Below, one piece after another: positions 40,896 to 64,000 of a stretch of DNA of 64,000 nt. Source of the DNA: an uncultured Pelagibacteraceae bacterium. Lineage in GTDB: Bacteria; Pseudomonadota; Alphaproteobacteria; Pelagibacterales; Pelagibacteraceae. The notes under the pieces are model-generated. The model worked only from the letters and a program-made list of their open reading frames with translations, made no database searches and was not told the DNA's origin. The stretch covers positions 1 through 64,000 of the forward strand of contig CACALX010000001.1 in the NCBI GenBank assembly GCA_902533445.1, in the 5' to 3' direction. Each line of letters opens with the position of its first letter. Positions within the stretch are counted from its first letter, which is position 1. Both the position numbers and the translations under genes were made by a program.

Positions 40896-41005
40896 AATTT
40901 CTTTATAATTAATTAGTTTATTTTTGAGATGAAAATAACTGACAGGTTATTTTGTGGCAGCGTTTAGTACCTCGAGAGCACTACATTCCAACCAAAAACA
41001 TCGCC

Positions 41006-41033
41006 AAAATACTTATTAATCAGCTATTGTCAA
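41006..41033 (-). promoter_or_regulatory. Candidate sigma-70 promoter for rpsL-rpsG-fusA-S10 operon
   Basis: The rpoC-rpsL gap (40896-41062) is the largest in the supercluster. On the minus strand it has a perfect TTGACA (41028-41033), a 16-bp spacer and TATTTT (41006-41011). Transcription from here would leave a leader of about 100 nt before rpsL; a GC-richer stretch in that leader (40960-40990) may fold. This is by resemblance to consensus only. Confidence 0.6.
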
Positions 41034-54565: not shown

Positions 54566-54641
54566 GCCCTTGTAGCTCAGTTGGTAGAGCAATTGATTTG
54601 TAATCAATAGGTCCGCGGTTCGAATCCGTGCGGGGGCACCA
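54566..54641 (+). tRNA. tRNA-Thr (anticodon UGU), probable integration site
   Basis: The 76-nt gene begins GCCCTTG and ends with an encoded CCA. The anticodon stem ATTGA/TCAAT encloses TTTGTAA (anticodon UGU). The D-arm TAGCTCAGTTGGTAGAGC and T-arm CGCGGTTCGAATCCGTG are standard. It is intact and points directly into an integrase gene 210 bp downstream on the same strand, the usual layout of an element integrated at a tRNA 3' end that has restored the tRNA. Confidence 0.97.
54617..54641 (+). other. Candidate attL core (3' end of tRNA-Thr)
   Basis: The T-arm to CCA segment of tRNA-Thr is the expected crossover zone for a tRNA-targeting tyrosine integrase. The core length cannot be defined, because no second copy of this segment is visible between 54642 and the right edge. 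The call rests on the adjacent integrase, not on a matched repeat. Confidence 0.45.
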
Positions 54642-54732
54642 GAAAACAATAAGCAATTCAATAAAATTTCCTTTCAAGAAAGTAAGAACATAAGAACAAC
54701 GAAGAACATACATTGCACGAATGTGGAATTGT

Positions 54733-54754
54733 TTGTAGTCGATTTGTAGTCGAT
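54733..54754 (+). repeat. Two perfect 11-bp tandem repeats upstream of integrase
   Basis: TTGTAGTCGAT occurs twice head to tail (54733-54743 and 54744-54754) in the 210-bp tRNA-integrase gap. It is followed by a pyrimidine-rich stretch of similar short units (CTGTTCC, CTGTTTCC, CTGCTTTC). Position and form suit integrase arm-type sites or an operator for the integrase promoter. Confidence 0.7.
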
Positions 54755-54851
54755 CTGTTTTTCGATACCTAAAGCGTTCAGTATCTGTTCCCTGTTTCCT
54801 GCTTTCTGATTTTAGAAATAAAATAAAACAAAAGTTATCGAAAGGAAAAAA

Positions 54852-56207
54852 ATGAAATTAACAGATAAATATATTAAAGATTTAAATCACTTGGACAAGG
54901 ATCAATGGATCAGTCATGATGGTGTAACAGGACTTGTACTTGGTGTTTATAAGTATCCATCGAAATCTAAAACTTTCTTTTATCAATATCGGCCTAAAGG
55001 AAAACACTCTGTCAGAATTAAAATTGGTTCTTACGAAGAGCTTGGAATACAAAGAGCTATTAAAAGAGCAAAGCAACTATCTAACGATATTTTTTCAGGT
55101 AAAGATCCGTATTTAACAAGACAGAAATTTGCAGGTGAGCCAACGCTTGGTGAACAGTTAAAAGAATCTTATAAATCTATTCTTACAACTACCAGATATT
55201 CAGCAGCAACTATTCAATCTATTAAAAGTATATTTGATACATATATTTTTAGAAAAACAGCAAGGCAAGAAATAAGAGATTTATTTAATCAACTAGACAA
55301 TATTCAGCATATTAAATTATCTGGAATTACTAATAAACATATTCAAAATCATCATCAAATCATTGGTTCAAGAACCCCAACACAAGCTAATAGATTCACA
55401 GAATATCTTAGAATGTTTTTTAATATCTGGAATGACAGAGGTATTACAAACAATCAACCTTGCAAAATTAAAGCCCATGATAAGTTTGAAGAAAAAGAAT
55501 ATTTAGATTTTCTTAGACCTACAGAAGCAACCCGTGTTCTAAGTATTTGTTTTCAAAAAGACCATAGGACAGGAAGATTTTTAGAATCTCATTACAAGAA
55601 AAATAAATTATCTGTTGTTGCTTGTGCATTAATTGCATTTCAAATTTATTCTTCCAGAAGGACCAGATCCGAAGGTTCTAAGGTTAGATGGGATAAAATA
55701 ATTGAAGGTGAAGAGCCGACACTTAGATTGGAAAAAACTAAAACATCAAAGAAAAACAAGAAGTTAGATTTTGGAATGGGTGATGATGAGTTAGATGTTA
55801 TTCAAACTATTAGAAGAGATAGGCTCAACAATCCTAAAAGTAAGTTTTATTATCCGCCCCATGATCCAAGGTCAGAGTATGTATTTCCTAGTAGATCTTA
55901 TGGTTACAAAAGAAAAAATGGTAAAATATTTAAAACTCCATACCTAGTTGATGTAGATAAAACATGGAAAAAAGTTTTGTTGTTAGCAGGTGTAAAAAGA
56001 AAGTTAAAACATTATGCAACAAGACACACCCATGCAACTTTACTACTAAGGAAGACAGGAAATTTAAAACTTGTTGCAGATACTTTAGGAATAACAATTA
56101 AACAGGCTAGTAAGTATGCAAAAACTATTCACTCAGATGTTATTGAAGGTAAGAACAAAACATTTGGAACAGTTGCTGCCCCTGCTCCATTGAAAGAAAT
56201 AGTTTAG
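54852..56207 (+). CDS. int: Tyrosine-recombinase integrase of a mobile element
   Basis: The 451-residue protein has the layout of P4/phage integrases: an N-terminal arm-binding DUF4102-like domain (about 1-95, KIGSYEELGIQRAIKRAKQL), a core-binding helical domain (about 100-200) and a C-terminal catalytic domain. An arginine cluster SSRRTRSEGSKVRW (269-280) matches the box I region, HYATRHTHATLLL (His387, Arg391, His392) matches box II and Tyr422 in QASKYAK is the likely nucleophile. The usual LGH histidine before the tyrosine is Ile414 instead. A ribosome site (AAAGG) lies 8-9 bp before the ATG. It adjoins tRNA-Thr, so it likely catalyses integration there. Confidence 0.9.
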   Translation: MKLTDKYIKDLNHLDKDQWISHDGVTGLVLGVYKYPSKSKTFFYQYRPKGKHSVRIKIGSYEELGIQRAIKRAKQLSNDIFSGKDPYLTRQKFAGEPTLGEQLKESYKSILTTTRYSAATIQSIKSIFDTYIFRKTARQEIRDLFNQLDNIQHIKLSGITNKHIQNHHQIIGSRTPTQANRFTEYLRMFFNIWNDRGITNNQPCKIKAHDKFEEKEYLDFLRPTEATRVLSICFQKDHRTGRFLESHYKKNKLSVVACALIAFQIYSSRRTRSEGSKVRWDKIIEGEEPTLRLEKTKTSKKNKKLDFGMGDDELDVIQTIRRDRLNNPKSKFYYPPHDPRSEYVFPSRSYGYKRKNGKIFKTPYLVDVDKTWKKVLLLAGVKRKLKHYATRHTHATLLLRKTGNLKLVADTLGITIKQASKYAKTIHSDVIEGKNKTFGTVAAPAPLKEIV

Positions 56208-56226
56208 TTGTTCTGTTGATCCGTGA

Positions 56227-56250
56227 GGCCTGATGAATTAAACTCGGGCC
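56227..56250 (+). promoter_or_regulatory. Hairpin directly against the next start codon
   Basis: GGCCTGA (56227-56233) pairs with TCGGGCC (56244-56250) around a 10-base loop, with one G-T pair. The ATG of the following gene begins at the next base. No T-run follows, so it is not a simple terminator, and no Shine-Dalgarno sequence is visible. It could control translation or end the int transcript; function is unproven. Confidence 0.5.
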
Positions 56251-56748
56251 ATGGCTAAATGGGAAGAGCTTATAAAATATTTAAATACTACAACTGCTAA
56301 ACCTGCAGCGGTTTTAAAGTTAATCAAAAATACTTGGAAACCCAAAGGTTCTAAATCTGTAAGAATAGATGATTATAATACGCTTAGAAGAGCTTGGAAA
56401 TATCATGTAGTTAATTCTATTTACAATGCTGATGGTACAAATCTTAAAGCTAAAATTTGGAATGTTGTTGAAGCAGAGTCTTATGAACATCAATTTAAAG
56501 CATTTAATTTGAAAGCTAAAAATAAAACTCCAGAGCAACATTTTAATGCATGTAAAAAATTATGGACTACTTCTAAAAATATAAGAGCAGAATTAAAAAA
56601 GAATGGTGGTCATTTAGATCCGCTCACAATTGCTGAGGTCCTTGTGCCAATGTACAAAGACAATGAAGGAAAAATAAGTACAGATAAATTCCTAGATGAA
56701 AATAAATGGTTGGTGAAACCTTTAGCAGCTAAGAAGAAAAAGAAATAG
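56251..56748 (+). CDS. Unknown basic protein of the integrated element
   Basis: The 165-residue protein is not recognised. It is rich in lysine, with predicted helices throughout, tryptophans at regular places (AKWEELI, KNTWKPKG, RRAWKYHV, KIWNVVE, KKLWTTS) and a KKKKK C-terminus. There is no signal peptide or membrane segment. It lies between the integrase and the HTH genes, 43 bp after int, with a short hairpin next to its start. A DNA-binding or structural role within the element is possible but not shown. Confidence 0.75.
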   Translation: MAKWEELIKYLNTTTAKPAAVLKLIKNTWKPKGSKSVRIDDYNTLRRAWKYHVVNSIYNADGTNLKAKIWNVVEAESYEHQFKAFNLKAKNKTPEQHFNACKKLWTTSKNIRAELKKNGGHLDPLTIAEVLVPMYKDNEGKISTDKFLDENKWLVKPLAAKKKKK

Positions 56749-56815
56749 ATACCTACCGCAGCAAGTATCCGAACTCAGATATACTTATATAAAATATATT
56801 ATACCAATACTTTCT

Positions 56816-57037
56816 ATGAACTTAGAGCATAGAAAATTTCTTAGACCAAATGAAGTAGAGGAAATCTACGGAATTAAAGTTGGTACGTTAGCCAAGCAGC
56901 GTAATCAAGGATTTGGATTGCCTTATGTAGTTATTGGACGAAAGCCCAAAAAAAGAAAAGGTGGAATTATTCTTTATGACAAAGAGGCAATTGAAGAAGT
57001 TTTAAAATCAAAAAATAAAGTTGAGGTAGTAGCATGA
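56816..57037 (+). CDS. Excisionase/AlpA-like HTH protein 1
   Basis: The 73-residue protein has the small winged-HTH pattern of MerR/Xis/AlpA proteins: FLRPNEVEEIYGIKVGTLAKQRNQG is the helix-turn-helix with the following LPYVVIGRKPKKRKGGIILYDKEAIEEVL wing and end. AlpA proteins of satellites activate integrase expression or act as recombination directionality factors. An inverted repeat AAGTAT/ATACTT (56763-56786) and an AT-rich stretch with TATAAA lie just upstream. It overlaps the next gene by 4 bp (ATGA). Confidence 0.8.
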   Translation: MNLEHRKFLRPNEVEEIYGIKVGTLAKQRNQGFGLPYVVIGRKPKKRKGGIILYDKEAIEEVLKSKNKVEVVA

Positions 57038-57435
57038 ACAATAGATCAAATGTTGAATCAAGAATGCCAAGTAAAGGTGATGGATCAGCAGCTAAAGAAT
57101 TAATGAAACTTGCTTCTGAAACGCCAGAAGAGGAATTTGAATTAGACGTACAAACAACATTAAAAGAATTACCTAAGTGGTTAAAAGAAAATCCAGATAA
57201 AGATGTGATGGATTTCTATAGAGAAAAAGGAATTATAATTAAAAGAATTGAATTAGATGACGGGGGTAAAGTGATCGACCTTCAATCTTATTTGAAACAA
57301 CGTGAAACTCCAAAAGTAAAAAAAATAGATTTAGCTCAAGGAGATTTTAACAAAACAGTCGCTGGACTAAGCTCAAAAGATAAAGATCTAATAAAAGAAC
57401 TTCTAAGAAAATCAGGTGTGTTGGTTGGAGATTAA
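57034..57435 (+). CDS. Unknown acidic/basic mixed protein of the element
   Basis: The 133-residue protein is not recognised. It is charged and helical: an acidic first half (ASETPEEEFELDVQ), a short WLKENPDKDVMDFYREKG segment, and a C-terminal helix (SSKDKDLIKELLRKSGVLVG). There are no membrane segments. Four-base overlap with the HTH gene upstream and direct abutment with the second HTH gene downstream show one translation unit. Confidence 0.75.
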   Translation: MNNRSNVESRMPSKGDGSAAKELMKLASETPEEEFELDVQTTLKELPKWLKENPDKDVMDFYREKGIIIKRIELDDGGKVIDLQSYLKQRETPKVKKIDLAQGDFNKTVAGLSSKDKDLIKELLRKSGVLVGD

Positions 57436-57732
57436 ATGTCATTAACAAAAATAAATTTTAAAGAAAAAGAAATAGCTACTATGTATTCTATTCCATTAAA
57501 GACGCTGAAGAAGTGTCGTAAGAATCAAGAATTTGGTAAGGACGTTTGTTTTACAGCTCCGAATAGTCATATCGTTTTATACAACAAAGAAAAATTTGAA
57601 GAGTGGTTTGAAGCTAATAAAGAAACAGCTGTCTATACACTAAATCAACGGATGAAAGCTGTTGTTGCAAGTTTAAAAAAAAATGGTTGGTGGCCTGATG
57701 GTAGAAAAAAGAATTATGAACGAAAAAGATAA
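57436..57732 (+). CDS. Excisionase/AlpA-like HTH protein 2
   Basis: The 98-residue protein has an N-terminal pattern similar to the first HTH protein: INFKEKEIATMYSIPLKTLKKCRKNQEFGKDVCF, then IVLYNKEKFEEWFEAN, as in MerR/AlpA-type winged HTH domains. A C-terminal basic helix (RMKAVVASLKKNGWWPDGRKK) is extra. It directly follows the preceding stop. Two such genes separated by one unknown gene suggests a small regulatory module. Assignment is by pattern, with moderate certainty. Confidence 0.65.
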   Translation: MSLTKINFKEKEIATMYSIPLKTLKKCRKNQEFGKDVCFTAPNSHIVLYNKEKFEEWFEANKETAVYTLNQRMKAVVASLKKNGWWPDGRKKNYERKR

Positions 57733-57883
57733 ATTATTAAAATTAATAGAATCTATTGATCCTGAAGCAGTGGACCATGTTGAATTTACTGCAGATGAAT
57801 ACGCAAAATTTAAAAAAGAAATTAACCTACTAGGTGGAAAAATCAAACTTCACATCATTCCACCACCAAAAAGTAAAAGCTAA
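57716..57883 (+). CDS. Small unknown protein of the element
   Basis: From the ATG at 57716 the protein has 55 residues; earlier in-frame ATGs would overlap the upstream gene much more. It is charged, with a VDHVEFTADEYAKFKKEINLLGGK core and a proline end IIPPPKSKS. It is not recognised. It overlaps the preceding gene by 17 bp and the next by one base. Confidence 0.6.
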   Translation: MNEKDKLLKLIESIDPEAVDHVEFTADEYAKFKKEINLLGGKIKLHIIPPPKSKS

Positions 57884-58386
57884 TGAAAATAAAAGAATAT
57901 AACGAAATGATGGCCTATTTAACAAAACCCAACAGAGTATTTCCGTCTAAGCCAAAAGAGAAAACAGATAAGACAGAGAAAGAAGTTATGAAAGATCCTA
58001 ACCTACTTAGAAGAATTAAACATATAGCTGAAACATACGACGATATAAAACTTGGAGAAGATTTTGACAAAGCTATTGCACAAGAAGATAAAAAACTTGC
58101 AGAAGTAAATGGAAAAACAATTCTTCAAAGATATCCAAAAGAAACTACACAAACAGAAAAACCTTTTAAGCAGCAAAAGAAAACCCTGAGGCCTGAACCA
58201 ACTGCAAGAGAGATCTTAGAAGATATAAAACTCAATATACCTGAAGTAGTTGAACCAATAGTCAAAACTCAGGATGAGATTGAAGCTGAAAAAAGATTTA
58301 ATGACATGATGCAGAAAGCTGAAGAAGAAAAACAAAGAATTAAAAATGGTGGCCTGGCTTATCTAATGGGTGGAGCTAAAAAATGA
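57883..58386 (+). CDS. Unknown charged helical protein with GGLAYLMG tail
   Basis: The 167-residue protein is hydrophilic, Lys/Glu-rich and probably largely helical or disordered. Its C-terminus reads KNGGLAYLMGGAKK. A short glycine-flanked GGLAYLMG-like motif recurs at the ends of proteins from marine phages as far as I recall; this link is not verified here. It starts on the stop of the previous gene and overlaps the next by 4 bp (ATGA), so it is in the same operon. Confidence 0.7.
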   Translation: MKIKEYNEMMAYLTKPNRVFPSKPKEKTDKTEKEVMKDPNLLRRIKHIAETYDDIKLGEDFDKAIAQEDKKLAEVNGKTILQRYPKETTQTEKPFKQQKKTLRPEPTAREILEDIKLNIPEVVEPIVKTQDEIEAEKRFNDMMQKAEEEKQRIKNGGLAYLMGGAKK

Positions 58387-58700
58387 TGAAATGGCAACTA
58401 AAGGATAAAATCATAATGCTAGAAGCACAAATCAGGCAGCTTGTTGAAACAAATTTAAAATTAACAACTCAACTTGGAAACCTTTGGGACGAGATAGGCT
58501 CGAAAAATGACTACATACGAGAGCAAAAATTTGAATTAGCTGAAGTTAAAGTTGAACGTGACCGTTGGAAATCTAAGTGGTCAAGGTGTGTTGCGAGGAA
58601 ATGGGAAAAGGTTGATGAAGCTTTAGAAGAAAAGAAAAAAAGAGAAGAAGGCAGAGCAATTATAGAAAAAGCTCTAAGTGACGAGAGGACAGATAACTAA
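58383..58700 (+). CDS. Coiled-coil protein of the element
   Basis: The 105-residue protein is dominated by heptad-like stretches (KDKIIMLEAQIRQLVETNLKL and KFELAEVKVERDRWKSKW) that predict a coiled coil. A second in-frame ATG directly follows the first, so the start could be at 58386. There is no recognised domain. It ends 20 bp before the primase-helicase gene. Confidence 0.72.
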   Translation: MMKWQLKDKIIMLEAQIRQLVETNLKLTTQLGNLWDEIGSKNDYIREQKFELAEVKVERDRWKSKWSRCVARKWEKVDEALEEKKKREEGRAIIEKALSDERTDN

Positions 58701-58719
58701 TTGTAGATAATTAATTTTT

Positions 58720-61023
58720 ATGAGTCGGGAATTTAAAGAAGGAAATAATGATTTTGTTAAACATGCTCCATGCACCAAGTGTGGAAGTAAAGACAATGTG
58801 TCAGTTTATAAAGATGGTCACGGATATTGTTTTGGATGTGAATATTTCTATCCACAATATGATGCTGCAGGTTCAGTAACAAAGCTTAATGGACAAAGCT
58901 CCAACAAGAATAAAATAAATCAAAACAACTATACTTACATGAAAGGAGATTACCATGACATACCATGGTCACTGGATTTTACAGATCCAAAAGAAGGATT
59001 TAAACGAGAGCAATACAAAAAGAAAAAAGGCTACGATACCCATTACATCTACACTGACAAAGAAGGCAATACTGCGTTTGTTGTTGAAAGACAGTACACT
59101 GATGAGTCGAAACAAGAAAAGAAGTTTATACCTTATAGCAAATGGAAAAATAAGATTGATGGTTCAACGAGGTGGATTTCAAAGCACATGTCAAAAGAAA
59201 ATAGAACCATCTATAATTTGGAAGCGTTATCAAAAAGTAGAGAGTCTACTGTTGTAGTTGTAGAAGGTGAAAAAGCAGCTAATGCTTATATCAAACAAAA
59301 GTTACTTCCCTGCACTACATGGTCAAGTGGAGCTAAGGCTGTATTAAAAAATGATTTTGATCCGCTATTAGACTTTCAAAATATAATTTTATTTCCAGAT
59401 AATGATACTGAGGGATTTACAGCAATGCATAAGTTGGCTCAGCATCTTGTGACCGATTTAAATGTTGCAATAGAAAATATTAAACTAGTTTTATTTCCAG
59501 ATGAATTTCCAGAAAAATGGGATTTGGCTGATCCTGTTCCTGAAAATTCGAACACAGATGGACACAGATTAGCATTTAACGCTCTACCCTATACTGAGGC
59601 TGCACCAAATTATTTAGATTTATGGAAAAAATTTAAAGAACCAGATTTATCAGAAAAAGAAAAAGATAAAAAAGATCGACTGTTAGAGGTATCGTCAAAT
59701 GTAATTTACATTGTTGAGCTTGATGAGATGTTAGACATACAAAAAGATTTACTTACTCCATTAAAAGCATTTGATAATAATTATGGATATTTAAAGGTTG
59801 ATAAAAAGAAGCCATCAACATGGTTATTAGAACAAGAACCAGAAATATTTAAAAGAGCTAACTCATTTGAATTTAACCCAAAAAGACCTAGAGGTTTGGT
59901 GGATGTAAATGGTGTTCCTATAGCTAATAGATACAGAGGTCCTTCTATTATTCCAAAGGTTGGTGATGTTACTATGTGGAAAGACACATTAATTGATTTA
60001 TTTGATGATGAAGAAGCAGCTCATGCAGCAGAGCAATATTTTGGTTGGTGTGTTCAAAACCAAGGTGAAAAAGCTATGTGGGCACCATTATGGATTTCTC
60101 CGAAAAAAGGAATTGGAAAAAATTTTATAACTAACATTTTAGGTCAAGTATATGGACTCAAGAACTTTAGACCAAATTTAAAATACAAACATGTGATAGG
60201 TAAATTCAACTCATGGATAATTGGCGCACAGTTTGCGGTAATCAACGAAGTATTTTTATCTAAAAATTTTAACAAAAAGCAGGAACTGTCAGAAGAAATT
60301 AAAGATTTAATTACTGAGCCATATATTCATATTGAGGAAAAATTTAGAAGAGGTTTTGATTATCCTAACACCTGTAACTTTATTTTAATTTCTAATCATG
60401 AAGATTGTATGAATATTGCTGACGACGAACGAAGGTACTATGTAAAAAAATTAACTTCACAAATTAGAAAACGAGATTACTGGAAACCACGATGGGAATG
60501 GGCTGCTGCAGATGGTGCAAGGTTTGTGATGAGTCATTTAACAAATCTAAAAATAGATGATCCTGATCTGTATAAAGAGAGAGCTCCTGTCACTGATGAC
60601 ATGCAAGAACTTGCTAAACTAAGTGAACATCCAATATTCAAATGGTTGGATGAACACAGAGCAGCTGAAACAGGACCATTTAAAAGAAGTGGATCAAGTG
60701 ACTTTAGAGTTTTTAATTACATGTGTGTTGCAACAGAACTACATAGAACTTGTCATGCATTTAAACAAGAAGGTGCATTGGAAGTGGTTATAGATTGGTG
60801 CAAAAAGAGATCAACATCATGGCACCCGATCAAACAAGAATATACTAAACAGATAGTCAGTGGTGATGGTTCGCGTCCGAGAGCCTATCTACTACCACCG
60901 CAAGATCCAGATACAGCAAATGAATATTGGCTGAAGACTCTAAGGTCTAAAGGACCAACGGACCTTGGCCGAATCTACGATATGAAGGGCAGCTATTCTC
61001 CAAAAGAGGAAGATATAATTTAA
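58720..61023 (+). CDS. Replication protein: zinc-finger/TOPRIM primase fused to SF3-type helicase
   Basis: The 767-residue protein is the largest of the element. A zinc ribbon lies at the N-terminus with Cys18, Cys21, Cys37 and Cys40 (CTKCG...CFGC), as in T7 gp4-type primases. A TOPRIM domain follows, with VVVEGEKAANAY (Glu182) and FPDNDTEG (Asp227, Asp229). From about residue 430 comes an SF3/D5-like helicase of the phage DUF5906 type: Walker A SPKKGIGKNF (Lys467), Walker B FAVINEVF (about 505-512), and sensor FILISNHED (Asn559) with an arginine-rich DDERRYYV. It likely primes and unwinds element DNA. The C-terminal ~130 residues are unassigned. It overlaps a 51-codon gene by one base. Confidence 0.9.
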   Translation: MSREFKEGNNDFVKHAPCTKCGSKDNVSVYKDGHGYCFGCEYFYPQYDAAGSVTKLNGQSSNKNKINQNNYTYMKGDYHDIPWSLDFTDPKEGFKREQYKKKKGYDTHYIYTDKEGNTAFVVERQYTDESKQEKKFIPYSKWKNKIDGSTRWISKHMSKENRTIYNLEALSKSRESTVVVVEGEKAANAYIKQKLLPCTTWSSGAKAVLKNDFDPLLDFQNIILFPDNDTEGFTAMHKLAQHLVTDLNVAIENIKLVLFPDEFPEKWDLADPVPENSNTDGHRLAFNALPYTEAAPNYLDLWKKFKEPDLSEKEKDKKDRLLEVSSNVIYIVELDEMLDIQKDLLTPLKAFDNNYGYLKVDKKKPSTWLLEQEPEIFKRANSFEFNPKRPRGLVDVNGVPIANRYRGPSIIPKVGDVTMWKDTLIDLFDDEEAAHAAEQYFGWCVQNQGEKAMWAPLWISPKKGIGKNFITNILGQVYGLKNFRPNLKYKHVIGKFNSWIIGAQFAVINEVFLSKNFNKKQELSEEIKDLITEPYIHIEEKFRRGFDYPNTCNFILISNHEDCMNIADDERRYYVKKLTSQIRKRDYWKPRWEWAAADGARFVMSHLTNLKIDDPDLYKERAPVTDDMQELAKLSEHPIFKWLDEHRAAETGPFKRSGSSDFRVFNYMCVATELHRTCHAFKQEGALEVVIDWCKKRSTSWHPIKQEYTKQIVSGDGSRPRAYLLPPQDPDTANEYWLKTLRSKGPTDLGRIYDMKGSYSPKEEDII

Positions 61024-61178
61024 TGCAGCAAAGGACATTGATTAACATGTTAATGAAAATGATCGAATATTTGATTGCAGATAATACAAGACTGAAAATG
61101 CAGATTGCTAAATATGAAAAAAGATCTGGTGCACAGTTTGGTGGCACTCAGCGTATCAACGAATTTAAAAAAGTTTAA
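61023..61178 (+). CDS. Small 51-residue coiled-coil protein
   Basis: An ATG that shares a base with the primase-helicase stop (TAATG) begins 51 codons to 61178. The peptide (MQQRTLINMLMKMIEYLIADN... ending RINEFKKV) has a leucine/isoleucine heptad pattern and no signal peptide. The translation-coupled start supports it as a real gene; function is unknown. Confidence 0.6.
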   Translation: MQQRTLINMLMKMIEYLIADNTRLKMQIAKYEKRSGAQFGGTQRINEFKKV

Positions 61179-61415
61179 AATGTGGCCACCTACCCTCATT
61201 GGTGTATGGCGAGGGTTCGAACTTATAATCTTTTTCTTTTTAACTGAGTTACCTGAGTTGCTTGAGATCTGATTGATTTATTTTATTTTTTCTCTTCTCA
61301 ACCTTCTCATCACTAAGAAAAAAATAATAGCAACAAACTTACTCTGAATTTCGCAACCTTACCTGAACTGCTGCTAACGAACGCTTAATTAAATTAATAA
61401 ATTGCTGACGTGAAT

Positions 61416-61460
61416 GACCGTGCTAAGCAAGATGAAAAATTTTTTTTACTCAGCATGGTC
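61416..61460. repeat. Long imperfect inverted repeat
   Basis: GACCGTGCTAAG (61416-61427) and CTCAGCATGGTC (61449-61460) form a 12-bp stem with one G-T pair and one mismatch. The 21-base loop contains AAAAATTTTT, which can extend the fold. It resembles a cruciform or terminator, but is large for the latter. Confidence 0.65.
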
Positions 61461-61501
61461 AAATTTATTTAAAAGAAAAAATTAACTGTTATATATAAAT
61501 A

Positions 61502-61562
61502 ATTACGTCCGTAATAAATTCGCTGAGTCAGTTGAGCTCTTCCCGACGCCTTCTGGCTCAGC
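61502..61562. repeat. Two adjacent hairpins
   Basis: ATTAC/GTAAT (61502-61515) surrounds GTCC, and GCTGAGTCA (61522-61530) pairs with TGGCTCAGC (61554-61562) as a 9-bp stem with one G-T pair around a GC-richer 23-base loop. TGACCCAAAAACGTCCTTTTT follows. They could be terminators of the converging operons or parts of an origin. Confidence 0.6.
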
Positions 61563-61645
61563 AATAATTAGTGACCCAAAAACGTCCTTTTTGCATCTAA
61601 TAATTGAAGTAATTTTTTATTTTTTTTTAACAGATTTTTGTTTCA

Positions 61646-62239
61646 TCAAAACATTTTTAGCAAATCATCAAAAGTTAGAGGTAATTTTTGATCTGGATTA
61701 GCATTATATGTATCAGGCATAAATATAGTTACACTATCTACCTCTGTTGGTCCTTGACCTATATTATCAATTTTTTCAAAAAAGATCGTGAAATAATTAT
61801 CTTTAGGTAGAAATTCAATTCTAGAAATATTTTTAGATGGGCGTTTTTCATTAAACGCAAATTTACCTTTATCAATAAACTTTTTTTTACCTATTTTATC
61901 TATGTGCCAAATATCGAACTCTGCATCGCTTTCTAAGCACTTATAATTCATATTTCTACAATAAGGACGAATAGCAACTTCTATAGCAAATTGTTCATCT
62001 ACGAATTTTCTTTTTGGAATTACACATTTTTTGGTGACATTTTTTGAATGTTGTAAATTAACTAAATTTTCATCCTCTGCCACTTCCCACATATTTAAAT
62101 TCCAAGTGCCAATTTTTCTTAATTCAAAATAACCAGACTTTTCATAACAATTAATTTGAATAAGATCGAACCATTGATCAGCAAAACTATTGTTTGACCA
62201 AAAAAGACTAAAAAAGATTAATAATAAAAGTTTTTTCAT
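61646..62239 (-). CDS. Unknown secreted protein
   Basis: The 197-residue protein has a clear signal peptide: MKKLLLLIFFSLFWSNNSFA then DQWFDLIQ. The mature part contains four cysteines (INCYEKSG, KKCVIPKR, PYCRNMNYKC) that could form disulfides in the periplasm. No domain is recognised. The upstream gene's stop directly precedes its start, so the two are co-translated. It ends the minus-strand operon facing the element's right-hand non-coding region. Confidence 0.8.
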   Translation of the reverse strand: MKKLLLLIFFSLFWSNNSFADQWFDLIQINCYEKSGYFELRKIGTWNLNMWEVAEDENLVNLQHSKNVTKKCVIPKRKFVDEQFAIEVAIRPYCRNMNYKCLESDAEFDIWHIDKIGKKKFIDKGKFAFNEKRPSKNISRIEFLPKDNYFTIFFEKIDNIGQGPTEVDSVTIFMPDTYNANPDQKLPLTFDDLLKMF

Positions 62240-63544
62240 CTAATAATTTGGAATATTTAATGTTTTATCGTTAACTAAAATTTTATTTCCCATTATTTTT
62301 ATAGAAGCTTTTTGACGATCACCTAAGCTAATAGATACAAGTTTTTCCAATACCACCTGTTGTTTATCGAGAGTAATTCCTTTTGAATTAAACAAGTCAT
62401 GATCTGCACCCAATCTTTTTTTAACTTTTAAAACTAATAGATCAGAAAATATCCCTGAACCTCCACTGTTTGACTGTGTTTTTAAAACCATTGCACCATT
62501 ATCCGTAGTCCCATAATAAAAATATAAAAAATAACCTTCACCATTTGGATAGTTAATTGAAACGACAGGCTTTCCTTCATCTAATCTTGAGATTTCATAA
62601 TCATCTAAAAGAGAATATTGGTTTGAATCAAATGCGTCTGAAAGATTAATTGTGATGATAATATCTCCACTATCTGCATATCCAGGAATGAAGTCCTTTA
62701 TAATTTCAGGATGTACTGGATGTTTTTGATAAAAGAAATGTTTAGAAAGACATGATTTAATTGTTCCAAATTCATTATCTGATTTTTGACAAACTGGATC
62801 AAGTTTGTCCAAAGTATTTTTAACATTTAAATCCGATAGAGCACTTTCCAAAGATAATTTGGCTGGTTTATAAGTTGGATCAACTTCTAAGGTTTTTTTA
62901 TAATATAAAATAGCTCCATTTAAGTATCCGTTCCTATTAAGCACATGTCCTTTTTGTAGAAGTAATTTTTTATTATCTGATTGTTCCTGTATAGAAACTA
63001 GTTTTCCATTTTCCCATACTGCTGAGAATTTTGCTTTAACATCAGCAAAAACTAAGGTTCCTTGACCATGTTTTTTATTATTCTTATATTTTCCATAAAA
63101 TAATTCACTATTGTCATAAACAATTGGTTGCTCTCCTTCAAAAAATGCAACACCATCTTTAAATTGACCTACATACTCTTCACCAGTTGGTAATATTATT
63201 TTACCTTTGCCGTTCTCCTTATCATTTTTCCATTCACCACTATATTTGAGTCCATTCTTATATCTAATTGCACCAGAGCCACTTTTTTTATCATCCTTCC
63301 ATTGACCTATATAAAGGATACCATCTGCTTCATCTGTGAATGTACCTTCACCATGTCTTTTGTCATTTTTAAATTCACCTTCATATTTTTTAAAATTCCA
63401 ATAAATTAAAGTTCCTTTACCCTCACGTTTTCCATCAACTAATTTTCCAATGTATTCATCTCCGTTAGGATAGAAAAAAGATTCAGCTAAACTAAAATTG
63501 GACCATGATAAAATAATTGTCAGGATTAAAAAAATTTTCTTCAT
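62240..63544 (-). CDS. Secreted MORN-repeat protein with a TPR-like segment
   Basis: The 434-residue protein has a signal peptide (about 1-20, ending SNFSLA) followed by about seven MORN repeats (residues 24-185; for example YIGKLVDGKREGKGTL and YEGEFKNDKRHGEGTF). A TPR-like helix pair follows (about 195-240, LNRNGYLNGAILYYKKTLEVDP). The last ~190 residues are unrecognised. MORN repeats occur in membrane-associated or scaffold proteins; here the location is probably periplasmic. It overlaps the next upstream gene by 4 bp and abuts the downstream gene. Function is unknown. Confidence 0.85.
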   Translation of the reverse strand: MKKIFLILTIILSWSNFSLAESFFYPNGDEYIGKLVDGKREGKGTLIYWNFKKYEGEFKNDKRHGEGTFTDEADGILYIGQWKDDKKSGSGAIRYKNGLKYSGEWKNDKENGKGKIILPTGEEYVGQFKDGVAFFEGEQPIVYDNSELFYGKYKNNKKHGQGTLVFADVKAKFSAVWENGKLVSIQEQSDNKKLLLQKGHVLNRNGYLNGAILYYKKTLEVDPTYKPAKLSLESALSDLNVKNTLDKLDPVCQKSDNEFGTIKSCLSKHFFYQKHPVHPEIIKDFIPGYADSGDIIITINLSDAFDSNQYSLLDDYEISRLDEGKPVVSINYPNGEGYFLYFYYGTTDNGAMVLKTQSNSGGSGIFSDLLVLKVKKRLGADHDLFNSKGITLDKQQVVLEKLVSISLGDRQKASIKIMGNKILVNDKTLNIPNY

Positions 63545-64000
63545 TTAAATTTTTCTATTTTAACTGAATAATCGATACCATTAAATGATGGTTTTTTATC
63601 GTCAAATTTTAGGAAATAAGCTTTTATAAAGTGTTTTCTAGATCCTGTACCCCAATTTGTTCCTTTTAATTTTATCTCACTTAAACCATCACTATTTAAA
63701 TCTTCAATCTCTACACTTCTTGGTGCAAATGTTTGGGTTTGATCAAATTCTTTAATATAGAATGTTGTTTCTTCGCTAACTAATATTACAGGATTATTTT
63801 CTTCAATATAAAATATATAAAACTGTCCACTTTTAGTGTCCTCTCTTCCTGCGTAATAAAATTTATATCCATTATCAGTGGTTTTAATATCGACGATTCC
63901 TGAAAAAAAGTTATTCATTATATCTGAACGCTCTTTAAATTTCTTATAAAGATCATTGTTTGAAAGATTTTTGTTTATAAAATCACTGCTTACCTCTCCT
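63541..64000 (-). CDS. Unknown protein, 5' end outside window
   Basis: The minus-strand frame is open from 63541 to the right edge with no stop, so an ATG at 63918 is not necessarily the start. Upstream codons read ...SDFINKNLSNNDLYKKFKERSDIM before the visible body. The body is beta-strand-like (GYKFYYAGRE, FYIFYIEE, EIKLKGTNWGTGSRKHFIKAYFLKFD) and includes VEIEDLNSDGLSEIKLKG, which resembles an FG-GAP/EF-type calcium loop segment. No domain is certain. It overlaps the MORN gene by 4 bp and belongs to its operon. Confidence 0.75.
   Translation of the reverse strand, partial: GEVSSDFINKNLSNNDLYKKFKERSDIMNNFFSGIVDIKTTDNGYKFYYAGREDTKSGQFYIFYIEENNPVILVSEETTFYIKEFDQTQTFAPRSVEIEDLNSDGLSEIKLKGTNWGTGSRKHFIKAYFLKFDDKKPSFNGIDYSVKIEKFK

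Follow-up and report, generated by a model that had tools for sequence, protein, structure and literature searches.

Integration at tRNA genes occurs among satellites of the P4 and PICI (phage-inducible chromosomal island) types. The tycheposons of Prochlorococcus combine a tRNA site, a tyrosine recombinase, a replication gene and a large cargo in a streamlined marine cell, and the marine virion-encapsidated elements termed VEIMEs carry an integrase plus replication genes. SAR11 bacteria, which rank with the most abundant cells on Earth, are thought to carry little mobile DNA. The subject here is an island at a tRNA-Thr(UGU) gene of an uncultured SAR11-type bacterium of the Pelagibacteraceae (assembly GCA_902533445.1, genome G000). 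The window, meaning the whole stretch of DNA analysed, is the first 64,000 nucleotides of the 164,479-base contig CACALX010000001.1 (G000:C1:1-64000); the island continues past its right edge. It is probably a helper-dependent phage satellite of SAR11, resembling the phage-inducible chromosomal minimalist islands (PICMIs).

PICMIs are islands of Vibrionaceae built on the model of int (PF00589), AlpA (PF05930 or PF12728), primase (DUF3987 or DUF5906) and fis, with a defence hotspot between prim and fis; they are packaged as concatemers by a virulent helper, and PICMI115 is 6.1 kb long (PMC10803314). The SAR11 island resembles them in its integrase (PF00589), AlpA-like helix-turn-helix (HTH) protein (PF12728, at a score just under the cut-off) and DUF5906 primase, in having no recognised capsid genes, in placing accessory or defence genes after the primase and in its direct repeats (PMC10803314). 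It differs in lying between tRNA-Thr and NAD kinase rather than beside fis, in its host, in its extra conserved genes and in its size, with a core of 7.7 kb and up to 17.3 kb in all, and its induction and packaging are predictions. The island probably works like a PICMI satellite but falls outside the formal definition, having no fis site and no Vibrionaceae host.

Tycheposons and picocyanobacterial integrases are covered in PMC10872708 and PMC10187409. Like a tycheposon, the island is a tRNA-bound tyrosine-recombinase element with cargo and a replication gene in a streamlined marine host; unlike a tycheposon, it has compact cargo-free forms. With VEIMEs it shares a marine setting and integrase plus replication genes, but it is known from genome sequence, and only a distant relative lies on an IMG/VR contig. 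AlpA-like regulators, a primase-helicase and, in some relatives, a small terminase recall P4 and PICIs, whereas no small terminase or capsid-remodelling gene was recognised in the island itself. Among the top matches in open PubMed Central text, which lacks bioRxiv preprints and most subscription papers, no title dealt with SAR11 satellites of this kind or with arrays of cassettes at tRNA-Thr.

An integrated island between tRNA-Thr and NAD kinase

The element is real, complete and integrated, and it belongs to a wider set of satellite-like elements in SAR11. From the sequence one can read both attachment (att) ends, empty sites in relatives, a gene content without recognised structural genes, a cargo-free sister, recurring arm-like sites and a conserved iteron block.

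The tRNA-Thr(UGU) gene is intact (54566-54641, plus strand), as the initial annotation had stated, and its last 46 nt (54596-54641) form attL. Its exact duplicate, attR, is found beyond the window at C1:71925-71970, separated by 152 bp from the stop codon of NAD kinase; cargo precedes it, and the distal att expected beyond the right edge is indeed there. In a genome search with the tRNA-Thr region, similarity to the tRNA 3' end at this distal copy spans C1:71916-71970, of which 46 nt are the exact repeat. The island between the exact copies measures 17,329 bp; the element reaches C1:71970, and is followed by NAD kinase and then tRNA-Leu(UAA). The tRNA-Thr 3' end would be rebuilt by the island upon insertion.

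Two copies of TGTAGTCGAT, 11 bp apart (54734-54754, plus strand), are probably arm-type sites of the integrase, and a third lies near attR (C1:71826-71835). Locus L007 holds three exact sites; three or more at up to one mismatch were reached in 5 of 200 shuffles. Similar pairs were read by eye in G172, L110 and L112. These arm-like sites change together at both ends: TGTAGTCGAT occurs at both ends in G000 and at the left end in AG-447-L02, the variant TGTAGTCAAT at both ends in G172, and TGTAGTCGTT at the left of L112.

A search for NAD kinase in 61 genomes of the genus gave 39 matches, of which 30 loci were examined, including the window's own and that of G172. At eight of the 30, intact tRNA-Thr adjoins NAD kinase directly, as an empty junction. 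The initial annotation had proposed a satellite or small mobile island, and had named two outcomes that would count against it: structural phage genes past the right edge, and conservation of the block in all relatives. No structural gene was recognised up to attR, and the block is not fixed, eight junctions being empty and close integrases and primases rare. The proposal is supported because both outcomes were negative, and cargo and the att repeat do lie past the right edge.

The core genes begin with a tyrosine integrase of 451 aa (54852-56207, plus strand; Pfam Arm-DNA-bind_3 1.1e-11, Phage_integrase 4.1e-8, phrog_1 3.4e-21), which scores 33.6 bits against PF00589 (cut-off 27.1); its identification in the initial annotation stands. 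It is followed by a conserved 165-aa protein of unknown function (56251-56748), predicted to be all-helical at low confidence (predicted local distance difference test, pLDDT, 66), for which Foldseek returned no match with this model (best E 6.4). An AlpA/excisionase-like HTH protein of 73 aa (56816-57037) is 74-93% identical across four close sister elements; against PF12728 (HTH_17) it reaches E 8.7e-6 and 26.3 bits, slightly below the 27-bit cut-off. The second of the two AlpA/Xis-like genes first annotated is a weaker case: the 98-aa protein (57436-57732) has an HTH_17 match of only 0.015, and its model (pLDDT 73.6) shows two short helices, short strands and one long helix. Between these two lies a 133-aa protein (57034-57435), and after them come a 66-aa open reading frame (ORF; 57683-57883), a proline-rich 167-aa protein ending in GLAYLMGG (57883-58386) and a 105-aa coiled-coil-like protein (58383-58700). 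The 133-aa and 167-aa families are common to otherwise different SAR11 elements. A copy of a pelagiphage virion motif was considered for the GLAYLMGG tail and rejected, there being no such tail in the predicted ORFs of three pelagiphages.

The largest core gene encodes a 767-aa protein (58720-61023) with a T7-type primase N-terminus, a TOPRIM-like part and an SF3-type helicase, in agreement with the original call (DUF5906 4.3e-19, phrog_1156 5.3e-27; 69.7 bits against PF19263, cut-off 27.6). Its profile, A6, matches the PDB entries 1nui, 'DNA primase/helicase' (6.1e-10, profile positions 1-126), and 6k9c, 'Primase' (6.8e-15, positions 378-606). The former we take to be the T7 enzyme. The P4-type primase model gave 19.5 bits, far under its cut-off of 108.7. 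A conserved 51-aa ORF follows (61023-61178). All these genes are on the plus strand, with coupled starts at 57034/57037, 57435/57436, 57883, 58383/58386 and 61023; the arrangement described in the initial annotation thus holds from 54566 to 61178, beyond which genes from 61646 onward are on the minus strand.

The Pfam scan covered all 22 predicted ORFs of the element and the PHROGs scan 20 of them (the 103-aa and 116-aa ORFs were omitted). These scans recognised no gene for capsid, portal, tail, terminase or lysis, as had been claimed for the visible part, nor any for capsid remodelling, and Pfam listed for the 22 no relaxase or conjugation family of the kind that would mark an ICE or IME. Below E 0.001 the only families were integrase, HTH_17, primase, helicase, MORN, NOV_C, EAD11, DUF and unknown-function families; weaker PHROGs matches were to an excisionase (phrog_66, 0.0097) and a ParB-like protein (phrog_620, 0.0018). 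A complete prophage was therefore rejected, no structural gene being recognised up to the distal att.

After the 51-aa ORF, 467 bases (61179-61645) align with three sister elements at a mean column identity of 61%, invariant TGAG-type blocks flanking A+T-rich stretches. TGAGT/ACTCA occurs four times in G000, six in G172, eight in L111 and nine in L112, counts reached in each case by none of 1,000 dinucleotide shuffles. The G000 block alone is less striking, as 11 of 1,271 windows of the same size in the 64 kb hold at least four such repeats, and conservation is the stronger argument. This iteron-rich block is probably the replication origin.

The cargo lies on the minus strand. Within the window it comprises a 197-aa protein with a signal-peptide-like N-terminus (61646-62239), a 434-aa MORN-repeat protein (62240-63544; MORN 2.7e-24) and most of a 172-aa protein (63541-64000, continuing to C1:64059). 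Outside it follow, at C1:64074-66861, a DUF6804 protein (103 aa), small membrane-like proteins of 131, 149 and 116 aa and one of 391 aa, and then a putative defence operon (C1:67002-71160). Its 298-aa NOV_C protein matches PADLOC TmtA (4.8e-14) and PDC-S36 (1.1e-8); its 616-aa SNF2 helicase, with a TTG start, matches phrog_62 (2.2e-60) and DpdE/DrmD/ZorD-like proteins; its 472-aa ParB-like protein is weak, with the phrog_620 match above and EAD11 at 4.3e-4, below cut-off. None of the three reached a curated NCBIfam cut-off, for which reason the set is called only a likely defence operon. Nearest attR is a 68-aa CxxC protein (C1:71219-71425, minus strand), kept in G172 and 70% identical in an element of G287; its 'DNA_pack_N' Pfam match (E 0.025, under cut-off) was taken as chance. 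The opposite-strand cargo occupies about 10 kb. G172 is without it and retains the CxxC gene; the cargo slot therefore lies between the non-coding block and that gene.

Sister elements and rival explanations

A search of genome contigs (47 pattern stretches) confirmed five loci, with primase identities of 78% in AG-447-L02, 69% in the metagenome-assembled genome (MAG) BS30m-G7, 70% in a Flavobacteriales-titled MAG, 67% in GOM-A1 and 47% in AG-325-C03. The sister in Pelagibacteraceae GOM-A1 (G172, contig LHBX01000008) occupies the same tRNA-Thr site, with an integrase 71% identical, and is bounded by 49-nt repeats; it is 7,742 bp long and free of the 10-kb cargo, with the CxxC gene (69 aa) kept beside attR. 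The AG-325-C03 relative is 7,726 bp long between 24-nt repeats of tRNA-Pro. In AG-447-L02 the integrase, also 78% identical, comes directly after tRNA-Thr. Judging by their AG- names, these last two are presumably single-cell genomes, which would exclude binning error.

The order int-165-alpA-133-hth98-167-105-primase recurs in AG-447-L02 and G172. L111 keeps the core order with its integrase cut and no match to the 105-aa protein. L112 also keeps it, a 247-aa protein there matching the 167-aa family only via the G182 member. L112 is the contig of the Flavobacteriales-titled MAG (JABGVU010000053.1) that carries the tRNA-Thr core, and mis-binning is suspected there; no result rests on it alone.

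More distant SAR11 elements have the unknown genes in common and exchange the integrase and the replication module. Those of G182 and G191 carry other primases with shared unknown genes, and one in G093 has a member of the 133-aa family (40%). The G287 element, which adjoins a tRNA-Asp/tRNA-Val pair, shares the 133-aa (35%) and 167-aa (33%) families; its 617-aa and 216-aa proteins, read by eye, look like a PolA-type polymerase and an SSB-like protein. Small terminases occur among these relatives. One on the 8,916-bp IMG/VR contig IMGVR_UViG_3300017731_002668 (L245) matches Terminase_2 (3.2e-8) and phrog_51 (4.3e-12); that of G287 is 35% identical to it (8.5e-22), and G191 has a weaker match (phrog_57, 1.5e-4). 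All three share the 133-aa and/or the 167-aa family with the window's element, L245 carrying the latter.

L245 contains the exact last 56 nt of tRNA-Thr without the 5' part. By a simple test for that part (GCTCAG within 34 nt), it alone failed among 24 viral contigs with a 31-nt core. Because element-like DNA and TGTCCGCAA repeats flank the core on both sides and an integrase adjoins it, we read it as a putative unintegrated attP. An integrase of G093 (L158) shares 76% identity with the one on L245. IMG/VR holds L245 as a distant relative, and the search with primase and integrase proposed in the initial annotation gave no close match there.

Helper dependence is suggested by gene content together with the relatives that carry small terminases. 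For the PICMI-like satellite we infer a helper and induction, followed by excision, replication and packaging, with defence and the site roles assigned as follows. A helper phage would infect the host cell, whereupon the AlpA-like protein, with the second HTH protein, would act as excisionase or activator. Acting through arm sites on either side, the integrase would recombine the two 46-bp att copies and so release a circle, which the primase-helicase would replicate from the iteron block downstream of its operon. The packaging machinery of the helper would load island DNA, as monomer or concatemer, into particles, and the packaged DNA would reach another SAR11 cell and insert in tRNA-Thr. Cargo in the slot between origin and distal att would probably guard the host against competing phages.

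Several observations weigh against this. IMG/VR scans with the primase alone and with an integrase alignment found no relative, and a scan with a primase alignment gave 141 loci, of which 80 were kept; all are distant, matching either at 23-30% along long stretches or briefly at an N-terminal zinc finger. Primase matches in 266 phage-collection records are led by one of 27% over 52%. In three pelagiphages the similarity stops at SSB (shared with the G182 type), primase and, weakly, integrase (25%, to that of L245), and none of the element's unknown genes was found in them. No terminase or pac/cos site was recognised in the element, packaging sites having had no systematic search. G205, one of the eight empty junctions, has a second core copy 3.8 kb off, beyond NAD kinase and tRNA-Leu (core positions G205:C6:60508 and 64331).

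The rival that survives best, unlikely in our judgement, is a tycheposon-like cargo island that excises and replicates itself and spreads by vesicles or incidental packaging (generalised transduction), with no dedicated hijacking of a helper. In its general build a tycheposon likewise combines a tRNA site with a tyrosine recombinase, a replication module and a large, variable cargo (described in part in PMC10872708), and the want of any recognised packaging gene fits too. Against it stand the two cargo-free relatives, compact 7.7-kb units with PICMI core genes, and the small terminases of more distant relatives.

A static genomic island that has lost its mobility is very improbable. Its appeal lies in rarity: a full-length primase match above 60% is found in only two of 197 family genomes, own included, and viral contigs hold no close relative. 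Own genome again included, integrase matches number 4 of 201 genus genomes (E<=1e-10) and 5 of 397 family genomes (1e-40), only G172 being close, and primase matches 7 of 197 family genomes (1e-3) and 4 of 397 order genomes (1e-30), in sets that overlap. Against stasis, the reading frames are open, the 46-nt repeats are exact, arm-like sites recur, and the element is present in some relatives and absent from others. Least probable is a decayed prophage stripped of its structural genes, as the phage-type integrase and T7-like/SF3 primase might suggest: the same gene order without recognised structural genes recurs in G172, L112 and (edges cut) L110 and L111, the att repeats of G000 and G172 are exact, and the core ORFs of these two are open.

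A satellite family with a defence-type cargo slot, together with multiple tRNA ends, is a concrete candidate route for gene exchange and turnover of phage resistance in SAR11. Gene swapping there becomes directly testable, since virome and single-cell reads already in existence can be screened for circular junctions and att repeats.

Cassettes between tRNA-Thr ends

With at most one mismatch allowed, a 31-nt stretch from the 3' end of tRNA-Thr is present in 146 of 201 genus genomes, and 57 of these 146 (counted by hand, twice) have at least two copies, up to five in G297. The 57 include the two satellite carriers, G328 and G343 with one copy per strand, and genomes with copies far apart (G264, one 70 kb away). 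The same search with the pattern backwards gave no match, and the 3' end of the neighbouring tRNA-Leu was multiple in only 1 of 140. The scarcity of mobile DNA generally supposed for SAR11, repeated in the initial annotation, thus does not hold here.

From 28 of the 57 multi-copy genomes, one locus each, 40 islands between successive core copies were cut out; the loci are 8 of 20 of one set and 20 of 20 of another, the latter picked for repeats, and in L194 the first core copy failed the simple tRNA test. These cassettes measure 411-6,584 bp (median 1,541), and their ORFs (at least 50 aa) total 21,818 aa antisense to the tRNA and 196 aa in its own orientation. Among their 99 ORFs an integrase profile found no match up to E 10, and the same profile did detect the integrases of L153-L157; it was built from six integrase rows collected here (the window's own counted twice) with no Xer-type recombinase inside. 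A genome-wide PF00589 search covered 8 of the 28 cassette genomes. Among ten repeat-chosen genomes (71-97% complete), which include these eight, nine had a single match apiece, in an open frame of 307-325 aa that is presumably Xer, and the tenth had none; in the eight the match was on another contig than the cassettes. Nothing else in the analysis was as surprising as this hotspot of cassettes in which no integrase was detected.

Cassette ends are alike, with a mean pairwise identity of 0.596 (right) and 0.565 (left) against at most 0.311 and 0.320 for internal windows (200 draws). Typical ends carry a pair of mutual inverted repeats, ATTAACGTTGAT at 31 bp ahead of the core and ATCAACGTTAAT at 12 bp past CACCA; at least 9 of the 12 letters are in place at the right end of 18 of the 40 islands, at the left end of 22 and at both ends of 14. 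Other forms exist, chiefly in islands of 6.1-6.6 kb. Neither end pattern had an IMG/VR match. No cassette was found in the window's own genome, where the 12-mer of the typical right end occurs once and its reversed control four times.

Genes 95-98% identical recur among cassettes of different genomes (four protein pairs). Among the cassette products are N-methylated pilins, a polysaccharide lyase, an MmeI-like type IIG enzyme and a match to a methyl-directed restriction enzyme, and T5orf172 and GNAT domains also occur. The SAR11 hypervariable region HVR4 is reported to lie between tRNA genes and to hold pilin genes, without attC sites (PMC2217521).

Tentatively, the tRNA-Thr(UGU) 3' end of SAR11 may be an integron-like cassette platform, at which satellites dock and integrase-less cassettes queue in tandem. 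The arrays are observed; visiting phages or satellites would provide, in trans, a tyrosine recombinase that swaps the cassettes, and restriction enzymes, type IV pilins and secreted proteins would be exchanged in this way. Homologous recombination between the repeats, with no recombinase at all, stays a rival. The 391-aa cargo protein of the window's island starts MKKLLGII, as do several cassette proteins (9 of 99, by a loose pattern), which is only suggestive of a shared history.

Tandem cassettes were seen in L187 (G297), L188, L189, L190, L191, L192, L193 and others. Genes for type IV pilin-like proteins with an FTLIELL N-terminus, between one and six per cassette, occur at L187 2986-6725, L192 2079-4121, L200 679-2202, L205 1881-2863 and L173 3020-3490, and could alter phage receptors or DNA uptake. 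In L176, L188, L194, L198 and others a near-identical signal peptide (MKKLLGIVVLGLLLSGNAYA-like) heads unrelated-looking proteins, as if new coding sequence had been fused to a common leader. Of the larger att-bounded islands in which no integrase was detected, that of L176 (6.1 kb) holds a helicase and a 397-aa protein beside an MmeI-like type IIG enzyme, and those of L195 and L196 (6.6 and 6.1 kb) a coiled-coil-like protein of 1555 or 1648 aa with one of 278 aa. At L160, L164, L165, L169 and L177, kilobases of DNA also separate rlmB from tRNA-Thr on the upstream side of the tRNA, which integration at the 3' end does not explain. Elsewhere in the window, Rfam rspL (rpsL sRNA) matches at 40917-41007 on the minus strand with 84.1 bits.

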